A stretch of DNA of 41,343 nt from Ectocarpus siliculosus (Eukaryota > Sar > Phaeophyceae > Ectocarpales > Ectocarpaceae). Location: the NCBI GenBank assembly GCA_000310025.1, contig FN649747.1:255397-296739 (forward strand), written 5' to 3'. Shown piece by piece: positions 6,738-36,052 of this stretch (position 1 is its first letter; each line of letters starts with the position of its first letter). Position numbers and translations under genes: made by a program. Below the pieces are notes generated by a model that worked only from the letters and a program-made list of their open reading frames with translations, had not been told where the DNA came from and did no database searches.

Positions 6738-6747
6738 TACTGCTGTA
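6738..6747 (+). other. Dispersed 10-mer TACTGCTGTA, copy 1
   Basis: Exact match to the 10-mer found nine times in the window. It lies about 400 bp upstream of the HNH start codon. Flanks are not shared with other copies beyond a few bases. Confidence 0.7.
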
Positions 6748-6972
6748 AACATCGCTCACCTCATCCGTCCTCGCGTGAGTCCTACCTAATAGCAAGGTGC
6801 AGCAAGCACGCTGTCCCACATCAGATAAAAGAACCCGAAAGACATGTACATACCGAAATAGCGTGTAGTCTAGCTTCGCAGAGTTGGGGGGTGACAATGA
6901 AACCGGCTAACCGTTTTCGTCTGCAGGCTGTCCACGATGATTATTGACGACGGTAAGAGATTCTATAGTAGA

Positions 6973-6982
6973 TACTGCTGTA
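6973..6982 (+). other. Dispersed 10-mer TACTGCTGTA, copy 2
   Basis: Exact match, flanked by short TAG-rich sequence, about 630 bp upstream of the HNH start codon. Confidence 0.7.
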
Positions 6983-7464
6983 GATCGGAGGACTCTTAAC
7001 CTCTCTCTGCTCTGTAGCTTCCGAGCGGTCACCCCGTACAGATCTTCCTGTGATAGTACATTCCGCAAGAGTGCGAGAGACGGCACCAGGAGTGCAAGAA
7101 TAAGAATAGTCTAGACTAAATGAAGCATAGGCCGATCGGTATGTCCGAAGCGGGGTCGTTGAGATCGCACAGATTATGAGTGCCCCGGAGATCCATACAG
7201 TAGGCCGCGGGCAAACTGTTTAGTTTACATATTGCTTCGTAAAAAGTAGTGACGACACATGCTTTGCCGCACGGGCTCATCGTTCACATTGCCTTTAGAG
7301 GGTAGCATGTGTCCACCACACAGGAACGCGACCGACCATTTTACGCAGCAGGCGTTTCGAAACGTCGCTGGTACATCTCTGTAGGAGTACAATACGTGCA
7401 TACCTCTTTTCTCGGGTGCATTTTTATTAAAAAATTTCGCTTCAAAAAAGGTGTACTCCTCTTT

Positions 7465-7569
7465 GGGTAGTTGGCTTATGACTACGGAAGGCGCCAATTA
7501 GACGAGTACGGATTAGAAGGTACTGAGCGGAGACCTGGAACGGTTTATTGTCATGTGAAGACAGCAACA
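7465..7569 (+). mobile_element. Short retroposon-like repeat (SINE-like), copy 1
   Basis: The segment runs from GTAGTTGGCTTATGACTACGG through GATTAGAAGGTACTGAGCGG to ATGTGAAGACAGCAACA. It aligns along its length with the minus strand of 30283-30485 and with 40430-40562, sharing the GTTGGCTTRTGACYACGG start, the AGAAGGTACTG core and the ATGTGAAGAC end. The (AAC)n tail is very short here. The family name is unknown to me. Confidence 0.65.
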
Positions 7570-8395
7570 TGTGTTCACCCGAAGGTATCGCTTCCCACAA
7601 AGTTTGTTGCACATCTTGTGAGATTCGTGGTGTATTTCATGATAAAAGGTAGTTAGAATGCGTTCGTTTCGAAAACGCGTGGGCGTTGTTGTTGCACACC
7701 AATATTTTTCATTTCGAGCAATTGTCCAATTTACTGTAGAGCCGTCTACAACATACAGCAACAACAACGTGTTCGTCTCGAAGTACGAGAGTGCCATGTC
7801 TCGAACAGGGCATTGCAGGCCCAAGCAAGCAGGTGACACATGCAGAGGACACACTGGTGGCCAGAGGTAAATCAGGTTGTGGGTAAGTTGAGCACCGACC
7901 ACATTCTGTCTATTCCCGCATCTCGGAAAGTGGCGAGATTCCAGCTGACACGGTGGGCTAGCGCAACAAAGGCAGAGATATAATAGGCTCAAAGTCGTTC
8001 CCGTTCTCTCAACCTCCACATCCAACCCTTGTCAGGTTGTCGTCGGTGCACAACCTTCACCTCTGGGCGCCAGTGCAGGCGTCGCGACAAAAAGACCCAA
8101 TCACAAAAATACTTCAAATTCCTAAGGACTTGGATACCATTCCGAAAACGTATAAACACATGGTATCGATGTAGTCTACCCTCCCACAACCGGCTGAATT
8201 TGGAATCAATTACACTAGTGCCGAAATACTTTTCAAACAGGGTTGTCTGGTTTCGTCGCTCATTCCCTCGAGCAGACAAAGACTGGTAGCCACACGATGT
8301 ACGAGCGAGGACTACCTCTCTGGGAAAGAGCGAAATCCTTTCTTTGAGCCTATTCCATTCTGTCCAGCTATGTCCGTCTCTCTCTCTCTTGTGCA

Positions 8396-10578
8396 TCACT
8401 GCCAAGAGAGGGCGATGCCGCTGTCAGGCACGTGGGAAGCGCAAGGCTCGGCGTTCGTGGACGGGGGGCGGTACGGAATAAACTCGACGCCCGACTCGAC
8501 GGTGCCCTTGCCCTTGCTCACATTGCCTCGTCCTGCATCATTGACTCTGCCGGCATTGATCCGGTCGTCGCGTTCCAGGAGGCCGATGATGCTGGGGACG
8601 TCTCGCAACCCGACGGGGATCTCTGGCATTGTTCCCTGTGGTTTGTGGGATCAAGCCGGGAGCAGCAGAGGGCGGGTACGGTCTTGTTTTGTTACTGGTC
8701 CTCGATTTTGCATCCATTTCCGCACAAATTAATTCAGCAAATGTATCATACCCGGCCCCCCCTACGTACCTTGCCTTCAATATTGTCTTGTGTTCAACAG
8801 GCCCCGGGGAAAACATGAACGAAGAGGACGGCACGCTCGGATATCATGCTGCAAGCCAAGATCGTTTTAGGAAAGGGAGCACATAGCCAACACTAACCCC
8901 GGCCTTGCGCCGCATGTTACTATAATTTGTATGTATTCACATGCAAATACTCACCGCCCAGAGCGCCTGCTCGATTACCTCCTCCATGGCGATCGCTCGC
9001 TGGTGCAACAACGCAGCGAAGTGGGTCTGGCGCCCCCGGCTCATCCCATCGTACCTGAGCCCGGATTCATTGAAGGACGAGCAAGGGCAAAAAGAACAAT
9101 AACTTGTATTGAACCATAAAATGGCAGACCGAAAAACAATTCAGATTGCGAGGGACTATGTGCTCAATACCAAAGGAAACGTCTCTTGTATTTTCGGTGT
9201 GAGTTTTCACTCTCCAAGGTTCTCAGCTTGTTCTAGAATGCAAGCCATCGCGCAAAGTAGGCGCCCTGCTTCGAATGCGCTCACCCGTTTCTCTTGGCGC
9301 GGTCGGAGAACAAGTCCGTCACATCCTTGGCGGGATTGACCAGAGAAATGACAGCCGTTGAGGCGTCCCAACTCACAAGGGTGGCAACCGTTCTGGCCAC
9401 TAAGGAGCATGCGTCGTTCATGCTGTCCATCGGACCTTTGGACGAAGAGGAAGCGGGTCCGAGGAGCGTCTGGTCGAGCATCACGTACATGCTCTTGACG
9501 GTGCGGATCATCCTTAACTCCACGCGACGGAGTTGGGGAGACAGGCGTTTGAAGGTCAACTGGATGACCCTCAGAGGGGGAAAAGAAATACCCTGCGAAG
9601 AGCAAAGACAACAGCATAGCGATATGCCATGTGGGCAGACGCACACGCGCACAGCAGAGAGAGACGTATGGAGAGGGAGAAGCTGGAGGAGTCAATTTTA
9701 TAAACTCTGAGGGAGAAAGTGACCGGCATACAGTAGGGGGACATAAAAAAAGGAGATCAGAGAGTCAGTAATAAAGAAGCAGAGAGAAAACGAGCGGCAG
9801 CTGAGGGAAAGAGAGCAGTCCCTTACTTCGGCATACTGTCTGAGATCGTTGGGACGGGATGCAACACTTTAGAAAGAGATGGAAGGTCAGCAGGAGATGC
9901 AGCATGAGACGTACATGTTCTGATTGACAAGTCGAGAACGTGTCACGTGGCAAATACAGCGAAGGTTGTTGACAAGGTGTTAGACCGACTACAGTAGTTG
10001 GCTCGATTATGACTACTGGTAAATCGTGTTGTGCCGAACGCTGGAGGTTAGTGCCCGAAGGGTTCTTGATAGACAATGCCCCACCAACGTATGAACAATC
10101 TACCACATTGGTTGGCGAGTTCAAGGTTGTACGACATCAAGCTGCGAAGTTAAGAGACCAACGCTTCGACGTGGACACTGCGTATCCAGTTTCCTTCTGT
10201 TAACCTCGTGTGTTGAACTGGGAGATTGTACACAACGACCAACTTCTCTCGGCCAAATATTGAGCTCTGGGGCTTCTGCCAAACGAAGTATCGCACCAAT
10301 GCATCCGGGCCTACTTGACTCACCTCTTCCATAATCTCCATTGGGTTGCGAGGTTCTCTAATGGCAGAAAGGCCAGGTGCAAGACGGCGCAGGTTGGCCA
10401 AGATTCTGCTCATGATGCCGCCCTCTTGGCAGGCGTGTCGGAAAGCCTTAACGGAAAAGTACAGAACGGGAACGGAGACGACGACCGCCGATACGCTTGC
10501 GACAACCATCGCGAGGTTCGCAACGATCCACGCCCACACGAAAGCCCAGACGGCGAATAAGTCGTTGAAGGAAAACAT
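8396..10578 (-). CDS. Hypothetical membrane-anchored protein, 4 exons, 287 aa
   Basis: Minus-strand exons are 10578-10324, 9592-9285, 9054-8979 and 8620-8396. Donors are GAG|GTGAGT, CGG|GTGAGC and GAG|GTAATC; acceptors are ttcgcag, gctcag and gccagag. Phases 0, 2 and 0 all match and the total is 864 nt. The protein starts MFSFNDLFAVW and has one long hydrophobic stretch at about residues 7-43, either a long signal-anchor or a re-entrant hairpin. Residues 90-187 look helical and amphipathic (LRVIQLTFKRLSPQLRR, then SLVARTVATLVSWDAS). Residues 200-240 contain FAALLHQRAIAMEE and DVPSIIGLLERDDR, and the C-terminal 40 residues are Gly/Ser/Pro-rich. I do not recognise the family. The clean splice frame and start ATG argue for a real gene; function is open. 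A role at an internal membrane with a cytosolic helical domain is the most that the sequence suggests. Confidence 0.62.
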
Positions 10579-13091
10579 GGTGATTCACAGGCATTGAAGT
10601 TGTCGGTGGAAGGTTCTGGTGGTAGAAGGAGCTTTCTGGTAGCTAGAGCTGTGAATAGTGGAATGAGAGGTCGGGGGAAGTCGTGCTCGTTCTTCACTCC
10701 CATGAACACAATCGGATCTTCAAACGTTTGAGTTCGGTTGAAGTTGTGTGTGGCCAATGGGTGATCTGCAAACAGATGGAAGGCCGAGGAGTTGACCCGA
10801 CTAGCCTTTGACGAAGAGATGAGTTCACACATTTTTTTTGTCTTCCTGCGGGAAAGGTAATTGCATCGTTAAAGAGAAGATACTCGCTGCCATGTTCTCC
10901 AATCACTCTGCATCGATGCGAAGTTGGGTACATCCCTCTTTTCTTGCTCTGTCATACAATAGGTAGAGTATTTCGTTGCCGCCCGCGACGGTAGGCATGA
11001 CTTGAGAGTGCCCACTCATAGTCTCACTCTTCCATTCAAGGACTATTAGAGCACATTGACTACAGTACACTGGGTGATAGAGCATGCACCGGGTTGACTT
11101 AGAGTGACCTGGGATCGTTCCCCTGCTTGTACTGCATTGTAGGAACAATAACCCACACTAGCACCACCGGCCCTTTTTTGCCATCCTGTTCCACCGAGTT
11201 TGGTCTGTGATGGGGCCAACCTCGCCATGCGGAGTTGCTGGCGAAAGGTCGAACGTGCGCGATCCTCAAAGGGCTGGTGTGGGGTCCGACCGAACCGGTC
11301 ATCTGTTGTACACACTCCGCCATCCGATGTCCTAGGCTACTTGCTGCACAGCAGCGCGTTCTTTTCGTAGCTCTACACATCCCCGCCCGCGGTGCAGCTG
11401 ACCAGCAGGTAGGGACCATATAGAGACTGAGACATGAAAGCGGAATATCGGAACCTCAATCTCGGTCATGTGAAGGCAAACGGGGGGGGACCGACATCCC
11501 ATGTGATAATCGTTGAGCATGAGTCTACGTAGGCACATATTACTCGCCGTGCTGATGGCCTTACATGCAGGCACCCGAAAAAATATTTCGAAGCTCCGAG
11601 AGGAAAAGGTGAGCGCACCGAACGTGTCAATGAATGTGGTTGTGGGTTGTGGGAGACAGACAAAGACAACATATGGAGTTCAAGGGCATGGGGTGAATGA
11701 CGGAGGAATCGGGGAGTAAGAAACCCGTTCGAGGAACTCGGCAAGACTTTTTTTGCAGCAAAAATGAATTCGGTTTGGCCTTCGGGTTCAAATGCCTGTT
11801 ATGGACACCCTCGGCAAATCAAAGTTGGTCGCGGATTCGTGTCCCTGGTGATCTCCGTTTCTGATCCATGCGAACAAAGTAACGCACGCACCTTAAACTA
11901 TTCCAATATGTTTGGCACTCGTCTCTCTCCCAGAAGTGAGCGACGAAAAAGTTTCGAAAGCGAACGGGAGGCCAGTAGTGCACAATCCGAGCTTGTGGCT
12001 TCTTCTCCCCCATTGCAACAAGGAGGAGAAGGATCTCCACGCGTTTTGGGCAGTCATCGTGACGTGAGTGTACTCGCGAACTAGAGGCGGAAGCCAAAAT
12101 CGCGCAGGGTAGGCAGGGCTCGACCGCGTGTGGTCTACCTGAGACCGACCAAAGTTCGGGGCACTAGTCTACAGCTGTAGGCCGTTGACGCGTTAGATGA
12201 TTCGCTGTGGGTGGGGGGGGCAGTGCCCGGCGCAAGCCTGCTGTACCTGGACACATACCCCCAGCAAGTAAGGTAGGCGTTTCGTTCTGATTTTTTGTTT
12301 CCTAGGGGAAAAGAGAGTTATAATGAAAAGGATGCCTGGACACGATTTGCTAGAGTACGAAGAAGGAATGCTTGGGGGAGCGTGGAATGAGAAGTGGGGG
12401 GGGGCACATTCTTCTCCCTGGGGTGCATATTGACTTGTTGGCGAAAACCTCCAGAAAGGGTCCCCGGAGACCAAAAGCGGCAAGTGCACGCATCACGGCG
12501 GCTGCGACCCTACGTAAGTGAGAGGCATCTCATGCTGAGACAACATAGGTCTCATGGACGCTGAGCAAAAACATTGCTCCGAACAAGCGACGCGGGCCTT
12601 TACAAGATGGCCTCAAAAGGCAAAAGACCTATGAACAGCCCGTCTTGCCAGCTGCGGCTGCACATGGCCAACCGGCAGCTGCGTAGATCTTGGTCCTTCG
12701 ACTTTTCATTCGTTTGCCCGCGAGTAATCCCATGCCTAACACCGTTGCCAAGGAGCATACAACGATACACCAACCGAAATCGGTGTCATCATCCTGAGGA
12801 AACCGCTACACAGTCCATGCATGTTTCCCGCCAACAGAAACGAACGCAGACGAACAATCAACCTCCTTTTTCTCCCGCATTTCTCATGAGGATTCGGGGA
12901 AGCCAGACTCTTCCGCGCGTTGTGGACTCACCACCGCCCTGCGAGACGACGGCAATGATCCAATCACACACTCCACACCGAGGCAGCGAGTGCAGATAAA
13001 AAAAGACAAACTGTCGAAATCCAACACGAGCTGTAGTCGAAGAGAAGGGAACAGCATTGCGACAACGGAAGAACCCATCTACGCAAGCAAG
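10579..13091. other. Intergenic region, no gene recognised
   Basis: This spans the promoter of the membrane-protein gene and the 3' UTR of the bL9 gene. The sequence nearest 13091 is A/C-rich on the plus strand, as expected for a minus-strand 3' UTR. An open frame at 11764-12084 (plus) is serine-rich and not supported by splice or family evidence. No repeat stands out. Confidence 0.45.
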
Positions 13092-16000
13092 CTAAGCGCT
13101 AGACTGAACCGACATGTCACCAGTCTTCTTCTCCTCCTCCTCCCCGGCCTCTTCCTCCTTCCCAACAACTTGGCGGTTCCCCTTGCCTCCGACGCTCATC
13201 TGCTCCACCACTAACTCCACCTGCACCCACGCCTTCTCCTCGAGTTCCTTGGCGCCGAGCTCCCCCGCGAGGATGGCCGTTTCAGACTCGGACAGCTTCG
13301 TGCGCACCAGCACCGTGTGCTGTCCGACCGTCGTGATCGGCTTCCCGCTCCCCGGGAGCCGTACCTCTTCCTCCGTCACCTCGAACGGTGAGTTCTTTCG
13401 CAGGTAGCCGCTGACATCCTTGGCCCTGGGTTCGCAAGCACGGGGTTGAAACGGCGCGTTCGTGCGTGAGCACCCTGGCTTCACCAATCGGCTGGCCCCA
13501 AGGTAAAAAAAAATGCGAGTACCGTATGTGACACAAGATGTCACAGCCCCTGGACCGATTTTCAGAGCCCAACTACTCCACCGATGTTGAGAGGCAAGGG
13601 TGGGTTTGGAGAGGCTGTGAATGCGCGGTCGAGACTTTTCATTTTCCACTCGGTTGTGATGAGACGATTTCGTGCTAAACGGCCGTGCTTGTTTCGCGCA
13701 TGCAGTCGCTGACATCTTTGGGTTGTTGCTTGTGTGGGCCAGGGTAAAATAGAAAGTCGGGGTACTCTTTTGGTTGTATGCTTGTTTTCCTCATATGATA
13801 TTTGGTGGTGTCGTAAAGGACGCTAGAGTTCTCTTCTTTGCGAAAGACATGCCGTCGGGCGTTTGCGAACAAGTTCCGGTACAAAGGCACAAAAAAGTAG
13901 CTGGTTACGAAGGCAGAGCCTGGACACGAAGCAACGCAAGATGAGCAATCATGCGACCTGTGCTCGGTTTACAAATGACGCAAGATGAGCAATCATGCGA
14001 CCTGTGCTCGGTTTACAAATGATGCATGTTCTTGTTCACCCAATTTTTCACCCAATATGAACACGAAGCTACGCATGGTATCCACCCCTGGATGCATTTG
14101 AGGGCAGCACAAAGAATAAGCAGAGAAGGCGCCACCCTCTCGGCAAGAGATGCAGACGAAATACAACAAAAAATCCGAAAACAGCCGGAATACCAAAGAA
14201 AACGCTCGTGCATGCATTCAAAAAGAGAGCGTTGTCCGGGAGCAGCGAAATTCGGTATGCTTGCCGTTGCGCACTGAACCGCTGAAGCCTACACTCATAC
14301 AGTGCGCCGCACGGGACTGTCAGCTAGGACAAACAGGATCTGTGTCATGCTCAGGGTGAACAGTGCACTCGGCAGCAGTGGCAGAGGCAGCGGCGGAGGC
14401 TGCCGCGCGCGGGCGGGACAACAGAGCCTGCGCCTATATGAAAATGAGGCCGAGAGGAGAGCCTTTCGGATGGCGCGCTAGGTTTTTGGTATTTTTGCAG
14501 CGTCACCTTTGAGACCCCTCACGAGTTGGGGAGGTTTTCGGTGAATACCGCCAGAGCCACATGGTCACCGAAACGTAGTCCCAGAAAGAACGGGAGCATG
14601 CACATGCTGGCAGATCGTTATTGTCAACTGGTCACTCGCAACGCGGGGCGTTCGTACCTTACAGCCTGACCAGGCGTCATCCCTCCTTTCCCCCCTGCCG
14701 GCATGTTTCGCTTCAAGACTATCGTAATGCCCGAGAGCTCCTGTCGGCCTCGCTTCAACGCCTTCAAGGCCGCGGCTCTCTCCTTCTCCGCTGTCTGGAA
14801 TTTGTGCAACACGCAAAACGCGTGAATACCAGCAGGTCGCCAACGACCGTGGTTCACCAAGAACGGCGAAAGGGGGAACCATAAAAAACTCATCGGGCGG
14901 AGGGGAGGTCAACATGTCTGTCAGGTGGTGACTAAGAGACAACGATCAGACAACCAAGCGAGAGGGCTTGATCAACTCGAAGGCATGTACACGCCTTGCC
15001 CTTTCGGCACTACACCACGACTACTGCTGTAGTGGCGTACAACCGGCCTGCGCATTCGAGCGCCTCCTCGCTTCTCTCACCCGATCGACGGCCTCGTACG
15101 CCAGCCTGTTGTCATCGGTGGCGTATATTGCTCTCTTGGAGGGGAACAAGAAGTTTCTCATGAAGCCCCCGCGGATGTCCACGTACTCGCCCCTGTAGCC
15201 CGTCCCGCTGACGTCGTCAGTGAGGATCACCTTGACGGTACTACGGGTGACGGACGCAACGTACAAGCAGTTTTCCAAATCATGTGTGCTTTCTTGTTGG
15301 AGGCACAAAACAGCAGCAGTAGCTCTTTTCAACAACATTTACAGTTTGGGAGAACGTTGAAGACACGTGCGCGCTTGTTTTGCCAAGTCCACGTGCTACA
15401 AACGGGACGCACTACTGCTAGTTTATATGCCCTCTTTCAAAACGGTAGGGGGGCCCGCGGCTCGCTGCAAATGCCCGTGTCGAAGTACAGCGGCAGTACA
15501 CCCCGGCCAGCACGCATACTGCTGTAGTGGACACGGGAGGTAGCCGTTGGGACTCGAGCCACCCGCACAACAGTACCGGAGGAGGCGGAGAGATGGCACC
15601 GTCCTTAACTGTCTTTCAAAGCTAGATTGCTCCACAACCAATTGGGCGTGGAAAGAACCCGATAGGTCTACGAAAGCCCTCGACGAGATGTTTCCAGAGC
15701 CACCATCGAGCTTTGAAAGTCGGTCTACAGCAGCCTCCCTCTACGCACGCCCACGGACGGTGTATGTAATGATTAACTCTGCTTCTTTACACTGCTGCCT
15801 GTAGCGAGACCTCTCGAACCAGGTGTACGTCCATAGGCTCGAAAGGTTTGCTGGAATTTCGCGTCCCCTTTGGGGGGTGTTTCACGGGATACATCACCAT
15901 ACCACCATGCCATGCAAGAACGACTACAGCAGTAGACCTACAGGCGCGGGTGAACTCACAGGCGTGGAGGACCGCAGAATGAAAAAAATGCGGCACAACC

Positions 16001-16286
16001 TCTACAGGAGAGGAGCAGCGAGCGGAGAGCTGCAAAGGCTGCCTTCCTTTAAAGGAACACTCAACCCGGACCAACATATCCACCCTTGCAAGTCCCATGC
16101 TGTAGGCGCATGGTGGTGTATGGTACCAGCCGCGAGTGTCTCATGCGACATCAAAGTTGTAGTGTACAGCAGTACCGCAGTAGCAGTCATGTACATGGCT
16201 GTGTGCGAAAGACTCACCCTAGCTGACGACGTCCTCGAGCGCTTGTTGGCAACAACGCGGTTCGCCGCTCTGCTGACTTCACCCAT
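13092..16286 (-). CDS. bL9 family ribosomal protein, probably mitochondrial, 4 exons
   Basis: Minus-strand exons: 14794-14658 and 13425-13092 are secure, and an exon ending at 15081 (donor CGG|GTGAGA) is secure in its coding part. Its protein, VILTDDVSGTGYRGEYVDIR and onward, has the bL9 N-terminal domain, with the basic GGFMRNFLFPSKRAIYAT segment that binds 23S rRNA. A helical linker (TAEKERAAALKAL) follows, then the bL9 C-terminal domain (AKDVSGYLRKN, VRLPGSGKPITTVGQHTVLV). A charged tail of about 30 residues is extra. The 5' end is uncertain. One option is exon 16286-16218 (MGEVSRAANRVVANKRSR, donor AGG|GTGAGT) spliced in phase 0 to 15230, giving 229 aa with an Arg/Ser-rich, mitochondrial-looking leader. 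The other is an unspliced start at ATG 15338 (MLLKRATAAV). Red-lineage plastid genomes usually keep their own rpl9, so a nuclear copy is more likely mitochondrial; that is an inference. Confidence 0.82.
13495..13585 (-). repeat. Dispersed repeat related to 22850-22925
   Basis: On the minus strand GAAAATCGGTCCAGGGG is followed by a TGNGATNNCT block and then ACATACGGTA. The plus strand at 22870 has the same 17-mer followed by similar spacing and ACATATGGTA. Similarity covers about 60 bp. It lies in the last bL9 intron, just upstream of the last exon. Confidence 0.6.
13936..14023. repeat. Tandem duplication, 44 bp x 2
   Basis: GCAAGATGAGCAATCATGCG begins at 13936 and again at 13980, and both copies continue through GACCTGTGCTCGG to TTACAAATGA. 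The copies are almost identical, so the duplication is recent. It lies in the last bL9 intron (13426-14657). Confidence 0.9.
15022..15031 (+). other. Dispersed 10-mer TACTGCTGTA, copy 3
   Basis: Exact match, in the bL9 intron just downstream of the exon that ends at 15081 on the minus strand. Confidence 0.7.
15517..15526 (+). other. Dispersed 10-mer TACTGCTGTA, copy 4
   Basis: Exact match. A related interrupted form, TACAGCGGCAGTA, sits at 15486-15498. Confidence 0.7.
15925..15934 (-). other. Dispersed 10-mer TACTGCTGTA, copy 5 (complement)
   Basis: TACAGCAGTA on the plus strand, within CTACAGCAGTAG. Confidence 0.7.
16165..16174 (-). other. Dispersed 10-mer TACTGCTGTA, copy 6 (complement)
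   Basis: TACAGCAGTA on the plus strand, just downstream of the candidate first bL9 exon and followed by further GCAGTAGCAG. Confidence 0.7.
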
Positions 16287-17168
16287 GACAAGGGCCGCGC
16301 TCTTCGTAGCAGCATAGACATGATGCCTTCCTGTTAGCAGCCGTGTAGGTGTGGCTCGAGTGCAGCAGGCAGTGTAGTGCACCACTTGACATCTCAAGGG
16401 GTTCTGCGAAGGAGAGGATTCTGGGGGGGGCTCGGCAGATATGGACATATGGACACTGCCGTCCGTGTCCTTGCGGCAGCAGCGACATCAGCTACAACAC
16501 GCAGTCGGCCAGGTGCACCGCGGGAAGAGCGGCGTTTTACCATGTGAGTTATCCGCGGCTTGGTTGATAGGCTTTGGTGTAACAGCCCTGCGGCTTGTTG
16601 GCGGAGCTCTCGAAGTACTGCGGCATGTACTCGAAAAGTCGGATATATTGCAGCAGTGACATTTGGAAATCTTCGCTGAAAGACCCATGCAATTGTACGT
16701 GTCAGCTGTGCACGCAGCAGCAGGCAGGAGCTTATGTAGCAGGAGGGGCACTCGTTACTTCACCAGCTACGACGAAAAACTGCTTCCTCGGGTTCGCAAT
16801 AGCTCGTTCAATCTCTGGGACTGCTGTGCAATGTCTGTGACCCGTCAACTTAAGCATAATAAAGCCCTGCTGCTGCCCCTGCAGATCCTCTCAACAAGTT
16901 ATTTGCTTACACCAACAGCCGGGAGAGTACAGCAGAAAATAGTATAGGAACCATGCAGCAAAGATGTAGTGATGAAGTACTCGGATGCGGGCGCGCCCGC
17001 CTTTGATCTAAATCAGCCAGGCGTAGAAGTCGACTTCCAATCGAGCGAAGCCCGCATGTCTCTGTTTCGCGACAATGCATAGTCTAGACTACGCTACCTA
17101 AAGAGGCTACAGTTCACCTGCTCCTCTTCTCGTTCCTCCCCTGTGTTTCGCGTGTCTTGAAACACATG

Positions 17169-17178
17169 TACAGCAGTA
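17169..17178 (-). other. Dispersed 10-mer TACTGCTGTA, copy 7 (complement)
   Basis: TACAGCAGTA on the plus strand, preceded by CATG, in the bL9/CSN2 divergent interval. Confidence 0.7.
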
Positions 17179-17501
17179 ATCCTATGTCTGTTTTGATACC
17201 GGTATGCGCATGCATAGCGGTCTACAAGATTAAAGGTGGCGCAGCAACGTGTCGGTGCACAACAGCAGCAAGCAGAGGTGCCTGCCACATGGTCGATCGA
17301 AACTAGAGGGAGTCAATTACATAGTGGGTCGCGGAATACAATAATGCCGGTGCGATCCAGCCGATTTCACCAGCATCAATATAATTGTAGCGGGCAACGG
17401 GCACTATTCAGAGTATGAAACGACTTGAAGATTCCATCCGTGCCAGACTATTTCACCGGCTCAATTGTTCCGGGCGACCGACATCGAGCCGGGACCACTA
17501 C

Positions 17502-17511
17502 TACTGCTGTA
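17502..17511 (+). other. Dispersed 10-mer TACTGCTGTA, copy 8
   Basis: Exact match in the context CTACTACTGCTGTAGCGG, about 470 bp upstream of the first visible CSN2 exon. Confidence 0.7.
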
Positions 17512-17979
17512 GCGGGTCTCCATCATGTGTGAACGAAGACGATGCACCACCCTACCCTGCCGTGGGCAACGCACCCGTTGCACACCAATCCAGCACCTAC
17601 CCATCCACGGACAGCGGTCGCGCACGCACCAACCCACTCAACCGGCATACATGCCGTTTTGTGAGCTTGTGCCACAAGTGCAGGTTGTCTACTCATCTTT
17701 GCCGGTTGGTTTTATCAGCAGCAAGAGCTACAGCAGTGGGAGTCGCCGAACATGGCGGTGATGGGGCAGCTGATAACACATGGCCGCCCTTTTGCGGGGC
17801 AGCCGCCTCAATTCAATGTGCAGAACCAACCTGATTTTTCCGTCTATGCCGTTCAAGTTCACCCGCCTTATGTCGGGGCGACCGCCTTATTCAGACAGCC
17901 TTGTTCGGGGACCTCCGCTGCTGTAATGTAGATCGTCGTCTATCTGACGTGAGATAAAAAAAAACGCTGCCAACTTCAG

Positions 17980-20900
17980 GAGCGACGAGGAGGAGGACTA
18001 CGACTTCGAGTACTCGGAAGAGGAACAGGAGGAGACGGACGTCGGGCTCGAGAACAGCTACTACTCAGCCAAGGCGCTCAAGGCGGAAGACCCCAAGGCT
18101 GCGGTGGAAGCCTTTCGAGAGGCAAGAAGAAAAAAACAAGGGCCACAAACGGCGGGGGGGGGGGGGGGAGGGGAGTGTACTCATGTAAAGGCATGTCGTA
18201 GCCGTTGGACCATTGACCTCGCATCTGGGACGGAGCGAAATGCCGGGTTTTCGCCGGCCCAAGCTACAATTCACAAAGATAGAAGCTACTTGTCGTCCTT
18301 GCATTTGCTGCGCCAAACCAGATAGGGACCACGGGGGGGGGGGGTGTACTCAGGAATATAGGCGCCCGCCGCAGTCGTCGTTAGACCATTGACCTCGCAT
18401 CCGGCACGGAACGATATGCTGTTGTTTCGCCGGCCCAGGCTACGTTCACAACAGAAGCTGGTCATGATCCTTGCGTTTGCTGTTCGCGGGATGTAAAGGC
18501 TGTCTGTGTGGCACGTCTCCGGGGACGGGACGGAGAGTGGGGTGTGCCCGTTGTTTTCGATCAGGTCTCCTTTTTTCCCGTCTGGCCAGACTGCCCGGGC
18601 CCGTGTCGGAGCAGTGTCCCTACACTTTTTCCCTATGCAATTTTAGTACACTATTTCCGATACAATTGTAGTACACTATTCCTATACATTTGTAGTGCAC
18701 TATCCTATACAATTGTAGTACACTATTCCCTATACAATTGTAGTACACTACTCCCTATACAATTGTAGTACACTACGCCCTATGCAATTGTAGTACACTA
18801 TTCCCTATAAAATTGCAGTACACTATTCCCTATATTATTGTCGATGCTGGGACGGGGGGGCTGGTGATCTCGCCTTGTCTTGCGTGGATTACAACGTAGA
18901 TTGGTCACATCCCGACCGATCCCCGGACAGACCAAATTCGGGTTGTTTCCCCAAGTGGCAGGGACGTGGTCACGCCACGCGCGAACTTAGCGCTTCGACG
19001 GACAGGTTTTGGGTGGCGTAACAACAGGGGGAGGAGGAGGAGGATAGAGGACCCTCGGGAATCAACATGGAAGCATAAGAGAAGATAACGGTTGTCTCAC
19101 TAGCCGGCGAAAAATTATAAAGTATACGGCCGTTTGCCATACAACATTCCTTTTTTTATCTCTAGGTCGGGAATCTTGCATATCTCATTTGACGCAAGCA
19201 ACTTGCGATCATATCCACGCCGAGACTGTCTGCTCCTAACCTTGGAAGGGCGACCCTTTCTTTTTTGTTTGGTCTCTGCTTTTTGACGCCCAACGATTAT
19301 GGATTGTGTTTAGCGATTGTGCAGATTTCAGTATGCGTAGCGCAGCTCGATTTTTCGTTTTGTTTTCCTGATTTCTTGCGTTCCTTCTCGTCTTCTACGG
19401 GGCAGGTCATGGCGCAGGAGGAGGAGCAAGGGATCTGGGGGTTCAAGGCACTGAAGCAGATGATGAAGCTGCTCTTCAAGATGTCGGCATTCCAAGAGTT
19501 CACGGACTGCTACACGCAGCTGTTGGGTGAGTCGACGAAGAGGCCACCGCGAAAGGTTCTGCTACTTCCGACACTTTTGGCGGTTGTGGTCGTGGTTTCG
19601 TGCCAATCGTCTCTGATTCCCCCATGTACAACTTTTCACCCTTCGACCGTGTCTGGAGCGGTGCTACTCCGGCGGAGATTGATTGCCTTCACGTCTACGA
19701 CAGATCTACGGCAGATCTACGACACACTTATACAGGGAGCAAACGCTCCACCCCCCGACCGGCCGAACAATGGTTTCATGACGCAATTCTTGTTTGGGAC
19801 GCCGACCTTTTCGTTTCACTTAACGCCAACTAAAACCGACGGAAAAATATATAAGGGTATACGAAGGGAGCCGTCTCGCAGAACGTGGGGGAGAAGGGCG
19901 TGAACAGCGTGTTGGACTACGTGTCCTCCTCCAACGACTGGGGCCTTCTCAAGGGCTTCTACGAGCAGACGCTGGATACGCTCAGGCGAGTCTTGCTTCA
20001 TGTTTACATTGCTTCGTGATTGCGATTCGATCTTGGCATGCGTGTTGGGATTTCATGGTCGTGTCGGCCACGTTTTTCGCACCGTTGCGCCTCGTAGGAA
20101 CAACTTGCACCCTCGATCAGTTAACTCCGCAGGTGCAGTCAAACCTCGGCTAAGGACATAACTGGTTATTCGTTTAAACAGGTGTCTTTAAGCCAGGGAA
20201 GTGTCCGTAAGGTTGACACACTCCGCAGGTACAGTGCAGTCAAACCTCGATTAAGGACATAAATGGTTCTTCGTTTAAACAGGTGTCCTTAAGCCGGGGT
20301 GGTTGACACACTCCGCAGGTACAGTCAAACCTCGGTTAAGGGCATAAATGGTTCTTCGTTTAAACAGGTGTCCTTAAGCCGGGGAAGTGTCCTTAAGGTT
20401 GATTCCCTTCGTTGAGTTGGGCATTCTGCGAGCCACCATGCCTGTGAAAAAAAAAAGTTGTCCTTAGCCGGGAGAGTGCCCTTAAAAATGGTGTCCTCAA
20501 CTGGGGGATGACTGTATCGTCGATGGCCCAGCTCTAACTATTTGCCCGCTCTAGCCCCGTCGGTCGCCTTACTGCTACCGCCCTCCCGGCCGTCTCCGCC
20601 TCGTCTCTGTTTGTGTCTGGGTCTCGCGTGACCCAGGGAGCACAAGAACAACAGGCTGTGGTTCAAATGTAACCTGAAGCTGGGACACTTGATGTACGAT
20701 GTGGGGGAGATGGGCAGGCTCCAGAGGATAATCAAGGAATTACTGAAGTGAGAACGATAGAAGGCAGCAGGCGTCGGGGGGGGTACGCGTTGTAAAGCGA
20801 GGTTTGAATCTTAGCCGAACAGGGCACACACCTGTGTCATGCCTACGTGTGATTTTTTTTTACGGGCCGCGACCCTCGTGCATTGGCCATATCTGCCTGT

Positions 20901-25300: not shown

Positions 25301-26747
25301 CTCTCTGGCGTTGAGGCAGAGGAGGCACACACACCGACCAACCCCCAATATCGGTTTTTCCCTGAGCACTGCCGAAAATGAATTGAGCTACTGTACCGTC
25401 ACCGCACCGCACGTGTGCGCCATCTCTGTCGGGGGGGTGGGCGTGCTATTTAACCAGACCTGCAGTTGGTGCATTTACATTTTCCAGCGATTGGGCGTTG
25501 AGCCTTTGAGGGTCTGCATCGGTGTTTGTGGTTGGTCGGGGAGGAGAATCTCGGGAAGTTGAAAAATGAAAATCTTTTCGCGGGCAGGCTAGAGGAAATA
25601 TATGTAGATAGGGATATCTCGACAAGGTTTGATCGTGACTGAATGTACCCACGTGTGCTTGTGCAAATGCACCCACGTGTGTAAGACAGCGCTATTGCGG
25701 GTGCCGTTGAATCGTACAGCCCCTTGTCGGCGCGAGGCAGAGAAGTTTAACTTTCGGCAAATGTTCCTGTCTACGTAGAGTAGTTTCGACCATTTTTTCT
25801 GGTTGAGTCATGGTACCACCGTCACAATATGCACCCGTAGCATTGCGTAGCATAGAAGCTTGCTGGCGTTGAATGCACAGACTGTTGGATGCCAATGTCA
25901 CACATTAACGGTCGTATGCACTTGTTGGACCAAAGAAAGTCAGCATCATGAGCAACAACACGCACTTCCAGGTGTTGCTCAAGGCAATCGCCCCCTACAC
26001 GCGGGTGAAGCTTCCCTACCTCGCGGGGGAGCTGAACGACATCCCCGTGACGGACGTTGAGGACCTCTTAGTTTCGTGTATCCTTGACGGGAAGGTTGAC
26101 GGGAAGATCGACCAGGTGCGTGGCGTGATGCTGCTGCGTAGTCCTGGTACCGATCGACGTGCTCGGTAAACTGTGTTTATCGCCCTGTGTACCTATGCCT
26201 TTGTTAACGTGTGTGCTGATGATGTGCCTGGCGCGCCTCCGGAGTGGACTCGTGAGAGCTTGTAGTGGTAGTGGTAATAGTGTCATGAAGGCGTGATGCA
26301 GGATGAAATTAAAGTACTGCTGTGTCAGTGGGAATCAGCTGCCACCAGTGACGTTTCCCAAGCTCGAACAGCTCACACAGCTGACGCGTTTTGGACTCGA
26401 AGAGCCCAGCGAACCCCAACGAACCAATCAGACAAACGTGTATACAGTCTTAAATGGCAAAGAGGAGCGTTTACTGCTGGCACCGTCCCGGTTCCCCTCC
26501 GTACTGTACTTTCGCAAAATACCTGCGTCCCCCCTTACTGATGAACCAGGTGAATCAGGTAGTTCTGTGCGGGAAAGTGTGCCCGGCCGCGGGAGGCCCG
26601 GCAAGCTCCGAGGCTGGCGCTGCCGCTGCGGTGGGGTCGGGATCGGGATCAAGAGCGCAGACGCGAACGGCCGTAGCGCTGGAACGGTGGGCGGAGTCCC
26701 TACGATCGCTCAACACCAACATTGCCGCGAAGGTCGACTACCGATGA
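17980..26747 (+). CDS. CSN2: COP9 signalosome subunit 2 (CSN2), 11 visible exons, start exon missing
   Basis: Exons: 17980-18121, 19406-19526, 19856-19985, 20637-20747, 21695-21823, 22500-22596, 23760-23843, 24139-24285, 25182-25280, 25972-26115, 26550-26747. All phases match and give 466 codons plus TGA; the animal protein has about 443. The chain follows CSN2 from end to end: acidic start [79 protein letters not shown]...[56 protein letters not shown], then the PCI/winged-helix part ([29 protein letters not shown]) and the final helix. CSN2 is the helical-repeat scaffold that presents neddylated cullins to the CSN5 protease. Introns after 18121 and 19985 begin with GC. The last exon carries an Ala/Gly/Ser-rich insert of about 20 residues absent from animals. 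The first base completes a codon (possibly the ATG), so a short upstream exon is needed; I could not place it. Confidence 0.95.
18148..18310 (+). repeat. G-run dispersed repeat, copy B
   Basis: A long G run is followed by TGTACTCATG, GGACCATTGACCTCGCAT, GGACGGAGCGAAATGCCGGG and CGCCGGCCCAAGCTAC. It lies in the first visible CSN2 intron and is arranged in tandem with copy C. Confidence 0.75.
18325..18480 (+). repeat. G-run dispersed repeat, copy C
   Basis: Same block order as copy B: G run, TGTACTCA, TTAGACCATTGACCTCGCAT, ACGGAACGATATGC, CGCCGGCCCAGGCTAC, then TTCACA and CCTTGC. The two copies are diverged, so the tandem is not recent. Confidence 0.75.
18633..18841. repeat. Minisatellite, 24-25 bp unit, about 8.5 copies
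   Basis: Units of the type CTATACAATTGTAGTACACTA followed by TTCC. The unit contains the palindrome CAATTG and the near-palindrome TAGTACACTA. Units in the middle are nearly identical; the first and last are degenerate. It lies in the first visible CSN2 intron, the one with a GC donor. Confidence 0.93.
20131..20516. mobile_element. pogo/Tigger-like MITE with internal tandem units
   Basis: The left part has three tandem units beginning CAGTCAAACCTCG at 20136, 20237 and 20322, each followed by TTAAGGACATAAATGGTTCT-like sequence and CAGGTGTCCTTAAGCCGGGG. The right end, read in reverse, is TACAGTCATCCCCCAGTTGA then GGACA, an inverted match to TACAGTCAAACCTCGGTTAA then GGACA. Inverted repeats beginning CAGTC next to a TA target are typical of pogo/Tigger-type Tc1-mariner elements. 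No transposase frame is present, so it is non-autonomous. It sits in the CSN2 intron 19986-20636. Confidence 0.75.
21485..21705 (+). repeat. Threefold tandem repeat across a CSN2 splice acceptor
   Basis: GATGATGCAGGGCTTGCAAG occurs three times, with the possible exon start after the CAG at 21496, 21597 and 21695 (periods 101 and 98 bp). Between copies the sequence GAGTTGTCCTCAYC...CACCATCGATACG...TTCGTTGGAYGGTGATACAT is shared. Only the third copy continues into the CSN2 reading frame ([13 protein letters not shown]). The first two copies are decoy acceptors carrying the first ten exon bases. Confidence 0.9.
22126..22356. repeat. Compound (GTT)n / (CTG)n microsatellite and minisatellite
   Basis: A pure GTT run is followed by two near-identical units of about 60 bp (GTCCTTGGTGTTGTTGTTGG and so on) and then CTG/TTG triplets. 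It lies in the CSN2 intron before the exon at 22500. The long Leu/Val open frames across it are artefacts. Confidence 0.9.
22850..22925 (+). repeat. Dispersed repeat related to 13495-13585
   Basis: Contains GAAAATCGGTCCAGGGG followed by a GCGATGCCTCGTG block and ACATATGGTA, matching the minus strand of the bL9 intron copy. It lies in a CSN2 intron. Confidence 0.6.
24286..24453 (+). pseudogene. Broken duplicate of a CSN2 exon inside the next intron
   Basis: Directly after the exon 24139-24285, the intron carries a second copy of its 3' half. GCGGGACCCCGAAATCGTTG and CTATGACCAAACTTGTCGAA at 24358-24397 copy the exon segment encoding [13 protein letters not shown]. The copy has TAA where the exon has the tyrosine codon TAC, and about 24 extra bases after GAAGCCTTT. 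The exon end plus donor, AAACAGATCAAG|GTGTGC, recurs in variants near 24318 and 24434. The duplicate cannot be read in frame and the next exon (25182) joins properly to the original. Confidence 0.85.
24772..24793. repeat. (GCA)n microsatellite
   Basis: About seven GCA triplets within a CSN2 intron. Confidence 0.8.
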
Positions 26748-26794
26748 CCAGCAAGCGACCGGTCGAGGGTGATTTTTCGTACTCGCCGCTCTCT

Positions 26795-26796
<2 letters not shown>

Positions 26797-26853: not shown

Positions 26854-26854
<1 letters not shown>

Positions 26855-27495: not shown

Positions 27496-29596
27496 TTGTA
27501 GATCCCTGTGCTATGTTAGCCCGGACCGCGAATGATCGATCGTCGGGCGGATGCAAGTGAGTCGCGGAATGGAGGCGTTTTTCGTGTTTGCACCGGGAGT
27601 TGTTGCCGCCGAATATCAGCCAGGGAGGGTGGGAGACCGCCGAACGCAAGCCAAGGGAGGTGTGGGGATGACGGTAGTGAACTTCATTCTTTATTACTCT
27701 TGTACAATCATGCACGATGATGGAATATTCCCGTTTGGGTTTTACGCACATGAAGGTGAAAAGTAGTTTTCGTTCTTGTGCACGGTCTGTTAGCGTGTGT
27801 TGCATAATTGTAAATGGATTCTTGTCTTGGGAAAGTGTTCGATTTGTAGAGTAGCTTGCTTGTTCGTGATGCCCCGGAAACGACGAATGGGGTCGTTTAT
27901 TAACACCAGAGACCAGTCGTTATTTTTCTTTCATGCAGTCTTACCCCTCAAGAAGCTGTTTTTTTTTTGTGTGTACCGGTGTCGATTGTGGGGTTGTTTT
28001 CTGTTGTGTACCTCGGCTATCCTCGAGATAAGTTAATTAGTCTTCACCTACGGATGTTTTCACAATTTAGTACGGACGCGCCTATTTGGCCGTGCATGTG
28101 TTGTAGACGTGCGCCAAAAGCGTCTATCTGGTCTCTGCTCGCTGTGGGCAGTGGGCAACGAATATAGCTGCAAAGCCGTCGCAGAGTCGTATGTAATACG
28201 AAGGCAGTCCCGCTCACGTCTAGTTTCATGCAACTGCTGTGGCAGGGCTGGTTGTACGGCACCGCCGGGCAGAACGTGTTCGTACGACGTCGTTGGCGAG
28301 CTTTGGAAAAGGTGGTGAGCTGCAGGAGGATCTGTTTCAAGTCCCAAAGTATCGTCACCAGCCTCTGCCTCTGCCTCTGAGACTGATGATTTGGGAGCTC
28401 TCGATCAAGATGTGGTTCATAGTTCCACAGGAAACATGCGTGCAAGACTTAAAGGAATAATACATGCACACACAGAAAGACTCGTGCAAGACACGATAAT
28501 CATCTGCGGTATCCACTTCGTGTCCGTGGAGCTACTATGTACGCGGAGAGAGTTCCCACTTTGGGAGCGGCCCAGTTTGCGCTTATTATGGTCTGGGTGC
28601 AATAACAACCTGATGCCCCCTCTTCCCCAGATAGCAGCAGCGAGAACATTAGCATTCACGCGCTGCTGGACGCAGCTCGGTGTGTGATGGCATAAAGCGG
28701 TTTGATACCTGCTGCGTCGAGCCCCGCACCTGCTGTATCATCGCCATACTGCAGTAATATAAAAATATTCTCGGTAACAACAGGCAGAGAGAGGTGGCTG
28801 CCTCTATGCCATTATATACCCGAGGCTGACAGTTGCCCCCGCTGTGTTGATTGAACATGATATTGGGATCTTGAGACGATTATCTTATATATCGGCAGTC
28901 AGTCAGTGTCAGTGACCAGGTGGCCGGGGAGCAGGTGGTGAACATGCAGCAGCAGCAACAACAACAACATCAACCAACACGCGGTTTCTGCCCTGGCTCA
29001 AATGGCTCTCGCTTCTGTCGTATTTTGGGGTGTGCCAATCGTCCCGATCGAAAGGAGCGTTGCTCTGTACGCTCCGTGGAACCAAGAAATTACTATTTCC
29101 TCGTGCCGTTCATTCAGCCAGCCTCGAGGCCGCTGTTGCGGTGGAGGCTAACACCGGCGGGGGTATCTCGAGAGAGGTATATCTAGACTATAATAAGCCG
29201 ACGAATGTCGTACGTACATGCACGCACGCTTCATCATTTTTCGTTGCGTATCCTACGGTGTCAGACGAATTCCCAGCTTGTCTGACCGCACGGAGCTTCC
29301 AACTCACATCCCCAGATGCCAGAAAGTCGCGAGATTACGAGCTGTGGCCTGGGGAAGCACGACACGTGACGAGGCACAGACAGGCATCACAGGACACGAT
29401 CAAACAAAGTAGTAAAGATCAAGATCTTGGCCAGGGGCCCCGCCCGTTAGGAAAAATTTAGTTATTGGGGTGGTTCAAAGGTACAGGGTGTGTGGCCCCG
29501 AGGTTCTTGCCTTGCTTCGGCGGGGAGCCTTCCAACCAGCAGGCAATAAGAGTCAGAACTTTGCTCACAGACTGCTGTGTGTAAAGCTGGCAGAGG

Positions 29597-32500: not shown

Positions 32501-35482
32501 GGGGCAGGTTGTCGTAGCGCGCTGAGAACGTCTTGACATGTTGCTTGAACTTGGGGATTCTCTGCTGTGTTCCCCGTCTTTGCTGGCAGGAAGGTAAGAC
32601 ATAACCAGATGCGTAGACTTGCGCCTCCGGCGGCCTGCGCAGCCGAGCACGACACCGCACGTGCTTTCTTTGGATGCACTCAAGTCACTTTGTTCGCTTC
32701 TCGTCGTGTTTTGTGGCTCTTGACAATGGTTGGAGCTTGGGGATACGAAGCAACGTTGTCGAAGTCGACGCTGGTGAACTGTGAAACCCTGAAGACATTT
32801 GGTATCCAGCATTTGCGGTACCCGAACATGTTTTTGCCTTTCAGTGTCCCGAATGTTGACAATATTTGTCTTGTCACCGCCAGTTCCTCCCCCTGGTTGC
32901 TGAGGGAATTGGTGCAGGCAATTGGTCTCTTGTGATGGAATTGTCAGCTTCGGTGCATGTATCGCCGGCTTTGCCCCTTTCCAAGCCCTTTCCCATTTCT
33001 CTGCAGGGATGCTACTTTGGTAGTGCAGGCCACCGCTTGGCCGCCTCCGATCGACCAACCTAATAGTAAATGAGGTCTGCACATCCGATGGTTGATGGTT
33101 GCGGTATGAACTGACGCTGTTTTCCCGTCCCCCTTCTCTTGTTACTCCCCCTCTTCCCTCGTTTCTCTTTCTCTTTGTCCCTCCCGTCACTGCTCGCTGA
33201 GAAGGCGATACCCCCGAAAGTCGGTGCTGGGGGCGGCGGTAATATTCTTGGGCGCGTGCGTGGCGATATATCTACCGATCTCTCGGCTGATCAACGCGAG
33301 GGCCACGTTGCACGACGATGCCAGGAGCCACGAGTACGACCCGGTGCACCTGCGGGGGGATAGCGGCGACTACGCCATCGTAGAAGGTAGGGGGGGGGGT
33401 AGGGGGGGGGGCAGCCTTCTTGATCGTGGGTTTGTGTTCCGGCTACGGGACTCCTCCTTCCCGTGCCCTGGATACGATGCGAGCGTACGTCGGGTTGTCT
33501 CATCGCTTGCCAATTCCTTGCTTCACGGAGGGATGTTTTTTTTTTTTTTTTGGCTGCGCGGTTTTCCCGTTGAGTCTTGGCGTTGTGTGTGTGCTCTACA
33601 GCGGTTTTCGCGCCCTTCTCGGAGCAGTCTGACCGCATCCTTTCTCGGTGCACACGTGCGGGCTAGTGCCGCCAATGCTTGGGTGCCTGAGTGGGCGGCG
33701 GTGGCGGTGGCAAGAAGTGAACCATCGTTTGGTGGATGGCGGGAGGGATTGGAGATGGACCGGAGACTGCGGGAACAGCGAGTTCGGTTGTTCTGTTGCG
33801 TGTTTAGCGTCGCAGTCCTTGCCTTCGATGTCCACGCGAAGGCAGAGGTCTGACTAGGTCTCGGGGCGACGAGGGGAATTTGGTTTGATACGGTACTAGG
33901 GAAGAGGGGGGATTGAGAACATGGTTTTCTAGAAAGCCCGGGCGAGTACGTGGACATGAAGGCTTTCGTCGATGGTCTTTTAGCGGAGACCGGATCGAAG
34001 CGCGCACTCCGTCCTGACCACCGCCGCCATGGTGCCTGGACTTTGTTCGGCCCGCTCTGAGACAAAGTTGCACGGGTCAACGACACGGAGGACAAACTAA
34101 ATAGGCTAATCCGCGCTCTGTCTTTGTCTTGTTTCTTATTTTGCAAGCAGGGTACAACACCATCCTGTACGTGCTGGCGTGCCTGCCGGCGGCCGTCTCC
34201 ACGGTGTACAAGCAGTACGCCCTGGAGCAGCACGGACGGCCGGTGGACGCGCACCAGCTGAGCCTCGGTGTGACCGCGTTCGAGGTGGTGTTCATCGCGC
34301 TAGCGGCGCCGGCGGCGTACCAGCTCCAGGTATGTAAATTGCGGAGCCCCCGTATGAGGTACATGCGTGCGACTGTTTGTTTGTTCGGGTTGGACGCCGC
34401 GCCCACACCTCAGGGTCGTTTTTGGTTGCGTCCACTTTTAAGGTTGTTTGGTCATGCTGTTGGCAGACTGGTCGACGTCAAACTGCCTTTTCTTCGGTAC
34501 GGCTCCGTCTTGCGGACCCAAGAATTTGCCGTACGTTATCCTTCCACCGCCGCCCCCACCCGCCCACCCACCCGCCCCGCCACACTGCTGTCCACTCTGA
34601 CGACAACCGCGTTTGTTTTTTTCCAGTTCTTGGGTAGACACGGAGACGGGAACACGCACGTTGGACAGGCGTTGAGAGACGGCTGGCGTTGTCTCGTGCT
34701 CATGAGGGATGTCGTCGACATCGACGGGTAAGGTTCGTGTTCTGTCGGCCTTGTCAGTTAAGCGTTTGCTTCTTCTGACAACCTTTTGTGCTCCTCCGCC
34801 TAGTACCCATGTCTATGCCACCCTCCGGTCGTCACAAAGACAAAGCGGCGTGGGCGGGAATGCGAAGGGTCTGCGCGACGTTGCGCTTCAGCAACCAACA
34901 CACCGTACGTCCTGTTTAGCGCGTTAGAAGCACGGCTGCCTCCCCGTGTGCACCGGTGGGAACGTGGCGTGCGCGTCCTCGACACGCTCGGTGCTGTTGT
35001 GCAGGGGGCCCCGGCTTGTATGTGTTCTGTCCACGCTATTCCCGAGCAGTCTTGGTCACCGTCCCCGCTTTTCTAGGCGTTTCGCGCCCCGAACCCGGCA
35101 CCTTTCCCCCGAAGTCTCTTGCGAAACTCGGCCGATCGTTCTTGCGGTGTGTTCTGTTGCGCCAGCTTTTACCCTCGTGTGCCGCTGACCTTGTCAGTGC
35201 CCGTTTTTTTTTTTTTTTATCTTGTTTTGTGTCTTGTCTTTTCTTTGTTCGTCGGATGTATTTGGCAATGCTTGCAGCTATCCCGTCGACGCGGAGTGCT
35301 GGGCAGGGCTGCCGCTGGTGTTTTCCTACGTCGTGGCTACTCTTCTGGTCAACACTCTGGTCCAGAAGGTCGTCGACCAGGCCGAGTGAGTTTTTTTTTT
35401 TTTTCCTATTAACGCGACTGGGTGGTGGTTCCTGTTGGAATTCGAACGCACCCATAGGCCGCCCATTTCTGACCCAGAGGGA

Positions 35483-35568
<86 letters not shown>

Positions 35569-36052
35569 AGGGAGAGAGAGAGAGATTGTGTGTGTGTTTC
35601 TTGAAGCGGAATCGACCGCGCGCTAGCCCGGCGGAGCAATAAAAAATGTATGCCAGTCTCGTAGGAATTAGCCTACAATACTTAATAACCTCGCGTGGAG
35701 GAGTGTGTGCCGTGTTCCTTGCTGAGATTGTCAGCGCTACTGCTGTACATTTCAAGTTATCGACGGGTCGAAACGAGTATCCTTCTACCTCGACTGTTGC
35801 CCTCTTGAGGGTGGGGCCCAGTTCCCGGAGTTTTAACCTCGGCGGAACACTGCTGCGCGGCTTTTAGCGCTGCTTCCGCCGTCGATGACAGCACCGCTTC
35901 TATGTTGCCGTTCGGGTGTGATAATCTTGTGTACTTTGTTGTATTTTTTCGTGCGTATTTCTTGTGCGATGCGCGTCGTTTTTCGCATGTCTCTCCCGGG
36001 TGAAGCCATGCCCTATTGCTGCTGCTGCTTTTGCTGCTGCTGCTCTTGCTGC

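Follow-up and report, generated by a model that had tools for sequence, protein, structure and literature searches.

A ten-base word of the Ectocarpus siliculosus genome as a probable excision footprint of TA-inserting transposons

We analysed a stretch of 41,343 nucleotides from contig FN649747.1 of the brown alga Ectocarpus siliculosus (hereafter the window, to which all positions without a locus name refer) in which the ten-base word TACTGCTGTA recurs far above chance. Judged from sequence, the majority of the copies are most likely footprints left by the excision of Tc1/mariner-like transposons that insert at TA, mainly miniature non-autonomous elements. Support for this reading comes from the coupling of the outer T and A of the word, from the rule that its two triplets share the same middle base, from transposon ends of the predicted kind and from three states of a single site in a dispersed repeat.

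In the proposed mechanism, insertion would duplicate a TA and give an occupied site of the form TA∣CAG...CTG∣TA. On excision, the non-transferred strand would be cut by the transposase a few bases in from the element end, and the single-stranded CAG leftovers from the two sides could pair save for their middle base. Repair would then yield TA, the leftover terminal bases (CAGCAG or CTGCTG in the ten-base form) and TA. Elements with a single terminal CAG would leave TACAGTA or TACTGTA, and the ten-base form would be the scar of elements with doubled CAGCAG ends, the whole terminal run being left behind. TACWGTA accords with an overhang of 2-3 bases, whereas TACTGCTGTA needs six bases or an extra doubling step. 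We infer the enzyme family, the 6-base overhang and the doubled end, rather than a repair step, as the source of the doubling. Two other routes to a doubled word were rejected: fill-in joining of both overhangs predicts TACAGCTGTA, which is found at 394 sites (reversed control 190), far fewer than the 12,540 of TACTGCTGTA, and a 3-base staggered cut at doubled ends would give TACAGCWGCTGTA, which is absent (0) from the sequence sample described below.

Abundance of the word and its coupled outer bases

The word occurs nine times in the window, on the plus strand at 6738..6747, 6973..6982, 15022..15031, 15517..15526, 17502..17511 and 35738..35747 (TA-CTGCTG-TA) and on the minus strand at 15925..15934, 16165..16174 and 17169..17178, at the positions that the initial annotation of this DNA had listed. 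Dinucleotide shuffles predict 0.07 copies, and none of 100 shuffles reached nine or more; in 200 Markov-simulated windows per model, the mean was 0.07 (maximum 1) at order 3 and 0.69 (maximum 4) at order 5. A search allowing one mismatch returned 23 matches against 1.69 expected, a number that includes the nine exact copies and in which two palindromic places were scored on both strands. Six exact copies fall between 15022 and 17511, in line with the annotated cluster of six within 2.5 kb at the bL9/CSN2 genes. Scans of the window with Rfam (gathering threshold) and for tRNAs gave no match. A palindromic description of the word, TAC-NNNN-GTA, was dropped: the 4-base spacers in the window were AGCA/TGCT in nine cases, AATT in four and any other in one or two.

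In the searched assembly (189,456,909 bases in 492 contigs) TACTGCTGTA was found 12,540 times (6,248 on the plus and 6,292 on the minus strand), compared with 364 (176 + 188) for the reversed word. A sample of 212,801 unmasked bases, consisting of the window and twenty 10-kb stretches, contained 29 TA-CAGCAG-TA words versus 0.67 under an order-3 model. The genome-wide count that the annotation had proposed as a check lies far above its reversed control. The genome rate predicts 2.74 copies in a window of this length, so that nine represent a local excess (P about 0.002, a value to be read with the fact that the window had been picked for its copies). The copies are clustered, with nine gaps shorter than 600 bp versus 2.1 at random and none of 500 random sets having as many, the window being included in this comparison.

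Within the sample, CAGCAG stood between two TAs 29 times where 0.31 was expected, CAG (TACWGTA) 63 times where 16-17.7 was expected and GAC (TAGWCTA) 36 times where 6.6 was expected, a 5.4-fold excess. The bases next to ACTGCTGT were the pair T..A in 29 cases versus 5.1 expected from the marginals, and the other 15 flank pairs pooled gave 63 versus about 87 (expectations scaled to the total of 92). Around ACWGT, T..A had 126 strand counts, compared with 26-50 for each of the remaining 15 pairs. The outer T and A of ACTGCTGT and ACWGT are enriched solely as a pair, relative to the marginals, and this is what a duplicated TA target gives. Triplets whose outer bases can pair were 2.9-fold enriched between TAs (201 vs 69.4), other triplets 1.24-fold (286 vs 230.5), in counts where a tandem array contributes part of the CCG class and AT-rich triplets are possibly raised by low complexity. 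Between nine other flank pairs, the pairable triplets stayed at 0.80-1.29 of expectation. Enrichment of pairable triplets would be expected if the 3-base overhangs of two inverted ends annealed with a central mismatch. Both triplets of TACTGCTGTA share the middle base; the mixed forms TACTGCAGTA and TACAGCTGTA have 423 and 394 sites genome-wide, with 463 and 190 for their respective reversed controls, where the mixed forms are palindromes, for which chance yields half as many sites as for a non-palindrome.

The flanks of the copies, which the annotation had described as not conserved, were compared for 38 distinct copies drawn from the window, the loci of the genome search and the twenty 10-kb stretches (some of them masked). 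Identity of 12/20 in 20-base flanks was reached in 3/703 comparisons on the left, 0/703 on the right and 2/1,406 of left with inverted right, and random stretches reached it in 2/703; the description holds, since the flanks are no more alike than random sequence. Counted position by position, T just before the word (3/38) and A just after it (3/38) are rare, and the surroundings are otherwise unconserved. Copy 17502 alone has the core of one of the miniature element families described below (family 2 or 3) within 40 bases. Extended flank similarity, which the annotation had named as the sign of a known transposon, is therefore absent among the 38 copies as a set, and a known element end is found at 17502 alone.

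States of a repeat site and ends of resident elements

A high-copy repeat of the form GGGTGTACTCATAGTCGTGCATGCCGTAGTCGTTAGACC, present in the window at 18164-18443 and near 41035 (minus strand), contains a site at which paralogous copies can be compared for inserted bases. Six fetched copies have the empty site ..CATGCCG-TA-GYCRTT.. (CCG-TA-GTCG), and 34 copies hold 1-9 bases between two TAs at this place. Twelve inserts are three bases long (CAG four times; CTG, CCG, CTC, TTA, TAA, CAT, TAG and CCA once each) and two are six bases long, one being CAGCAG (copy C11) and the other a local duplication. Four inserts are a single base, in every case G, and seven are of 4, 5, 7 or 8 bases, mostly local duplications. 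The nine 2-base inserts are exclusively CG (4), TT (3) or AA (2); they may derive from another transposon family with 2-base footprints.

TGCATGCCGTACWG matched 12 places, four of them among the 34 inserts, and the eight others were fetched. Two of these (L061 and L064) are further CAG scars, and L066 is an occupied site with the left junction TA∣CAGTGGGGGCTACGG and the element start TA∣CAGTGGGG, the right end lying beyond the fetched stretch. Four places lie outside the repeat (L062, L063, L067 and L068, the last being an unrelated TACTGCTGTA), and L065 is ambiguous. The scars at the site are seven TA-CWG-TA and one TA-CAGCAG-TA. A single paralogous site thus displays the empty, the occupied and the scarred state, the last of these in its doubled form in one copy. 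A catalogue of indels between copies of repeats contained 475, including 82 of 3 bp, of which one is a CAG at ACAGT (L030 and L032, 98% identical over 562 bases); the catalogue holds a few TA-x-TA cases, none of them CAGCAG.

To find transposon ends near the cluster, we compared 14900-17940 with the genome, skipping very common words and scoring the best 40 of 436 candidates. At least 58 matches, including the self match, were obtained and fall on three short dispersed repeats, one of which ends at 17502 and another of which starts at 17729; among the matches listed, the five remaining TACTGCTGTA copies of the interval (15022, 15517, 15925, 16165 and 17169) lie outside all three. Family 1 is a dispersed fold-back repeat at 15574..15706, defined by alignment and by genome matches at about query 673-807, which starts TA∣CCG.. 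and appears incomplete. Family 2 is a resident miniature element on the plus strand that with its flanking TAs spans 17318..17511, according to genome matches, alignment and an end survey. Its right end is ..CCGGGACCACTACTACTGCTG∣TA and its left end is diverged; genome matches and alignment identify the TACTGCTGTA copy at 17502..17511 as its right terminus plus TA, not a scar. Family 3 (17729..17925, from alignment and genome matches) is a resident miniature element with TA on both sides, inverted ends matching at 16/20 and doubled ends, TA∣CAGCAGTGGGAG..CCTCCGCTGCTG∣TA. The one-base variant of the word at 17729 exists because this element starts there.

Alignments of fetched copies (seven of family 3, eight of family 2 and five of family 1) gave TA-flanked inverted ends TA∣CAGTAGTGGTCCCGG.. 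for family 2, TA∣CAGTGGGGGTCCCCG.. for family 3 and TA∣CCGTAAGAGGCGG.. for family 1, and the number of CAG triplets differs between element ends. Both the window copy of family 3 and L041 have the structure TA∣CAGCAG..CTGCTG∣TA, doubled at both ends. A survey of family 2 ends returned 94 matches versus 10 for its control, mostly with a single CAG, the smaller share having one additional CAG or TAG; the corresponding survey of family 3 (63 matches vs 25) was too mixed to be used for counts. A scan for TA-flanked inverted ends in the sample and the window gave nine matches, some of low complexity and including matches with CAG, GAC and GAG ends, and met no exact TACTGCTGTA copy besides 17502. 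The element ends CAG and CAGCAG with their TA flanks match the bases found between the TAs of the scars. Eight of the nine window copies fit scars, and the ninth, 17502, forms the terminus of an element that is still in place. The annotation's suggestion of a remnant of many tiny insertions came closest of its options: the copies do appear to derive from insertions, and most of them look like what departed insertions left behind.

Objections and rival explanations

Several observations weigh against the footprint reading. At the paralogous empty site the doubled scar was seen just once (C11), the other seven CWG scars being single, and the second TA of the same repeat (TTAG) has 13 inserts, none of them CWG; beside this result stands the avoidance by scars of a T before the TA, noted above (3/38). 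No abundant family with CAGCAG ends came to light. An overhang of six bases exceeds the three described for Sleeping Beauty and mariner. TACWGTA, with 34,036 sites genome-wide versus 17,017 for the reversed control, is only twofold enriched, and part of these sites must be chance; a CGGTA tandem array supplies 6/8 of the window matches to TACSGTA and inflates that class. Further objections concern the core itself. ACTGCTGT outside TA..TA is about twofold over the marginal expectation (63 vs about 28), and TACAGCAGTG, in which one outer A is lost, was counted 3,347 times versus 343 for its reversed control, about tenfold, with a pattern ending in a non-A base; few of the 100 TACAGCAGTG places listed run into known element ends. 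One-step variants of TACTGCTGTA numbered 64 versus 16.9, the outer positions varying more than the six inner ones. In the sample these variants are mainly transitions, so scar decay may explain part, but perhaps not all, of these excesses. In the variant count the outer positions had looked soft until the marginal-corrected table restored the T..A coupling, a result with which the TACAGCAGTG excess is partly at odds. Because of the TACAGCAGTG excess, our confidence in the scar reading is slightly reduced.

The doubling could have arisen after excision, by replication slippage or by duplication during repair acting on single-CAG scars, an explanation that we regard as rather unlikely. It would account for the repetition of the same triplet; the window is rich in CAG/CTG tracts, the repeat site has seven single-CAG scars for one doubled scar, and the element ends themselves vary in triplet number. 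However, longer tracts should slip more readily, and between TAs in the sample the single triplet was found 63 times, the doubled 29 times and the tripled once; GAC and CCG words were not doubled there at all (0 and 0). Because the tripled form is so rare, slippage is less likely than elements with doubled ends, whereas a single duplication may have occurred in repair. The copies might also be a short DNA-binding site, regulatory or structural (for a transcription factor, an insulator or a cluster of transposase-binding sites), kept by selection throughout the genome. The clustering and the six copies in the bL9/CSN2 interval speak for such a site, as do the residual ACTGCTGT and TACAGCAGTG cores outside TA..TA and the three to five ACWGCWGT words located 0.84-1.3 kb upstream of a DDE_Tnp_4 match in L034, L039 and L040. 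A binding site would show preferences position by position, whereas the outer T and A, relative to the marginals, are in excess jointly only. Enrichment extends to other TA-NNN-TA words with pairable arms, and one repeat copy carries the word as an insertion of 8 bp at a TA. Insertion hotspots would account for the clustering as well, and three dispersed elements share the interval. The regulatory option of the initial annotation is not supported by these findings and we consider it improbable for the copies in general, although a subset could be of this kind. ACWGCWGT words are absent from L037, which belongs to the same family as L034, L039 and L040, and from the L031 group; the words of those three loci are left unexplained by the scar model.

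A further possibility, in our estimation a very improbable one, is a transposon of the PHIS group, in the style of NuwaI, that duplicates a 3-bp CWG target and that entered TACWGTA and left with both copies of the duplication kept. The same-base rule would follow directly, NuwaI has CWG duplications (PMC4482050), the genome contains 75 DDE_Tnp_4 (Harbinger type) matches, and L030 and L032 differ by exactly one CAG at ACAGT. Such a transposon predicts TACWGTA as the empty site, yet the empty site of the repeat is a plain TA (one site). A scan for CWG-flanked inverted ends in L001-L028 and the window gave no match, compared with two for a mixed-base control, and the target duplications given for Harbinger elements of Ectocarpus are ANT or TNA (PMC12477816). 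At the Harbinger loci, element ends were not reached inside the fetched flanks. That the TACTGCTGTA copies are simply ends of resident miniature elements, without scars, applies to the copy at 17502 and to the 17729 variant, and as a general account it is hardly credible: the 38 copies lack shared flanks, a family 2 or 3 core lies beside 17502 alone, and the nine matches of the inverted-end scan met no other exact copy, although ends of another type or one-sided ends could escape that scan.

Window features, known systems and significance

Beside the eight proposed ten-base footprints, all of them exact words with flanks unlike those of other copies, word matching gave eight TACWGTA sites as candidate single-CAG footprints (7196..7202, 7732..7738, 9729..9735, 9990..9996, 11061..11067, 25389..25395, 26502..26508 and 38622..38628), some of which may be chance matches. 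A candidate TA-flanked element with inverted ends TA∣CAGTCAAACCTCGGTTAAGG (end match 15/20) lies at 20320..20516. The copy at 15022 is beside the bL9 exon region on the minus strand, where a 57-residue stretch near 15055-15240 matches Ribosomal_L9_N (E 1.1e-17), and 17948-18127 on the plus strand matches COP9 signalosome subunit 2 (E 6.8e-13). TAGTCTAGACTA, the palindromic double of TAGWCTA, was noticed at 7107-7118 and 17080-17091; as TAGWCTA is 5.4-fold enriched and a candidate GAC-ended TA-flanked element (end match 15/20) is located at L017 6778-9250, it may be the scar of a second, GAC-ended family. The same locus contains, at 3983-6451, a candidate element of 2,467 bp with TA flanks and near-perfect inverted ends CAGTTGGCGCCCGCAGGTAA (19/20). 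A 25-bp minisatellite, TACACTATTCCCTATACAATTGTAG, with about nine copies at 18621-18841, likewise contains many TAC/GTA arms.

Such footprints are already established; what is new here is their scale and the doubling with a shared middle base. Sleeping Beauty, a Tc1/mariner transposon, leaves TAC(A/T)GTA (PMC3432063). Its transposase and those of mariner elements introduce nicks three bases within the transposon, and end joining of the resulting 3-base overhangs gives the footprint (PMC7827188). The word described here resembles the Sleeping Beauty footprint in having TA on both sides, the terminal CAG/CTG between them, either middle base and TA as the empty site; it differs in carrying the triplet twice with the same middle base and in its more than twelve thousand copies. 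Grass Stowaway miniature inverted-repeat transposable elements (MITEs), which are of the Tc1/mariner type, leave fragments of their terminal inverted repeats, mostly of 1-4 bp, between TAs (PMC1925063). The likeness extends to short terminal remnants between TA duplications at empty MITE sites and to the reuse of one site, whereas the Stowaway work concerned single loci and here one fixed word recurs genome-wide. For Ectocarpus, 17 Mariner-Tc1 families with 11,912 copies are reported (PMC12477816), which agrees with the abundance of miniature TA-type elements in this brown alga; a search of the main text of that paper for the terms 'excision' and 'MITE' gave no occurrence. Among the papers listed by our literature searches there was no report of this genome-wide word or of its doubled same-base form, which does not prove that none exists, and the titles listed for the word and its complement were on unrelated subjects.

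We tentatively propose, as a possibility that falls short of even chances, that the doubled, same-base scar testifies to an atypical form of Tc1/mariner excision, with joining of a 6-base CAGCAG overhang whose length follows from the doubled element end. The genome would then preserve over ten thousand of these events, each at its own site, and excisions could be counted directly and compared with insertions within a single genome. DNA transposon insertions are easily counted and excisions usually are not, and here the scars make one word stand out genome-wide. The GGGTGTACTCATAGTCGTGCATGCCGTAGTCGTTAGACC repeat is a useful trap for counting both insertions and scars. Motif searches in the brown-algal lineage should mask the TACAGCAGTA/TACTGCTGTA words, which could otherwise pass for a strongly enriched regulatory motif. 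The more than twelve thousand TACTGCTGTA copies may keep count of past departures and, if the scars are confirmed across related strains, their numbers, decay and positions would give the numbers and ages of excisions and the hotspots of insertion, for example at bL9/CSN2.

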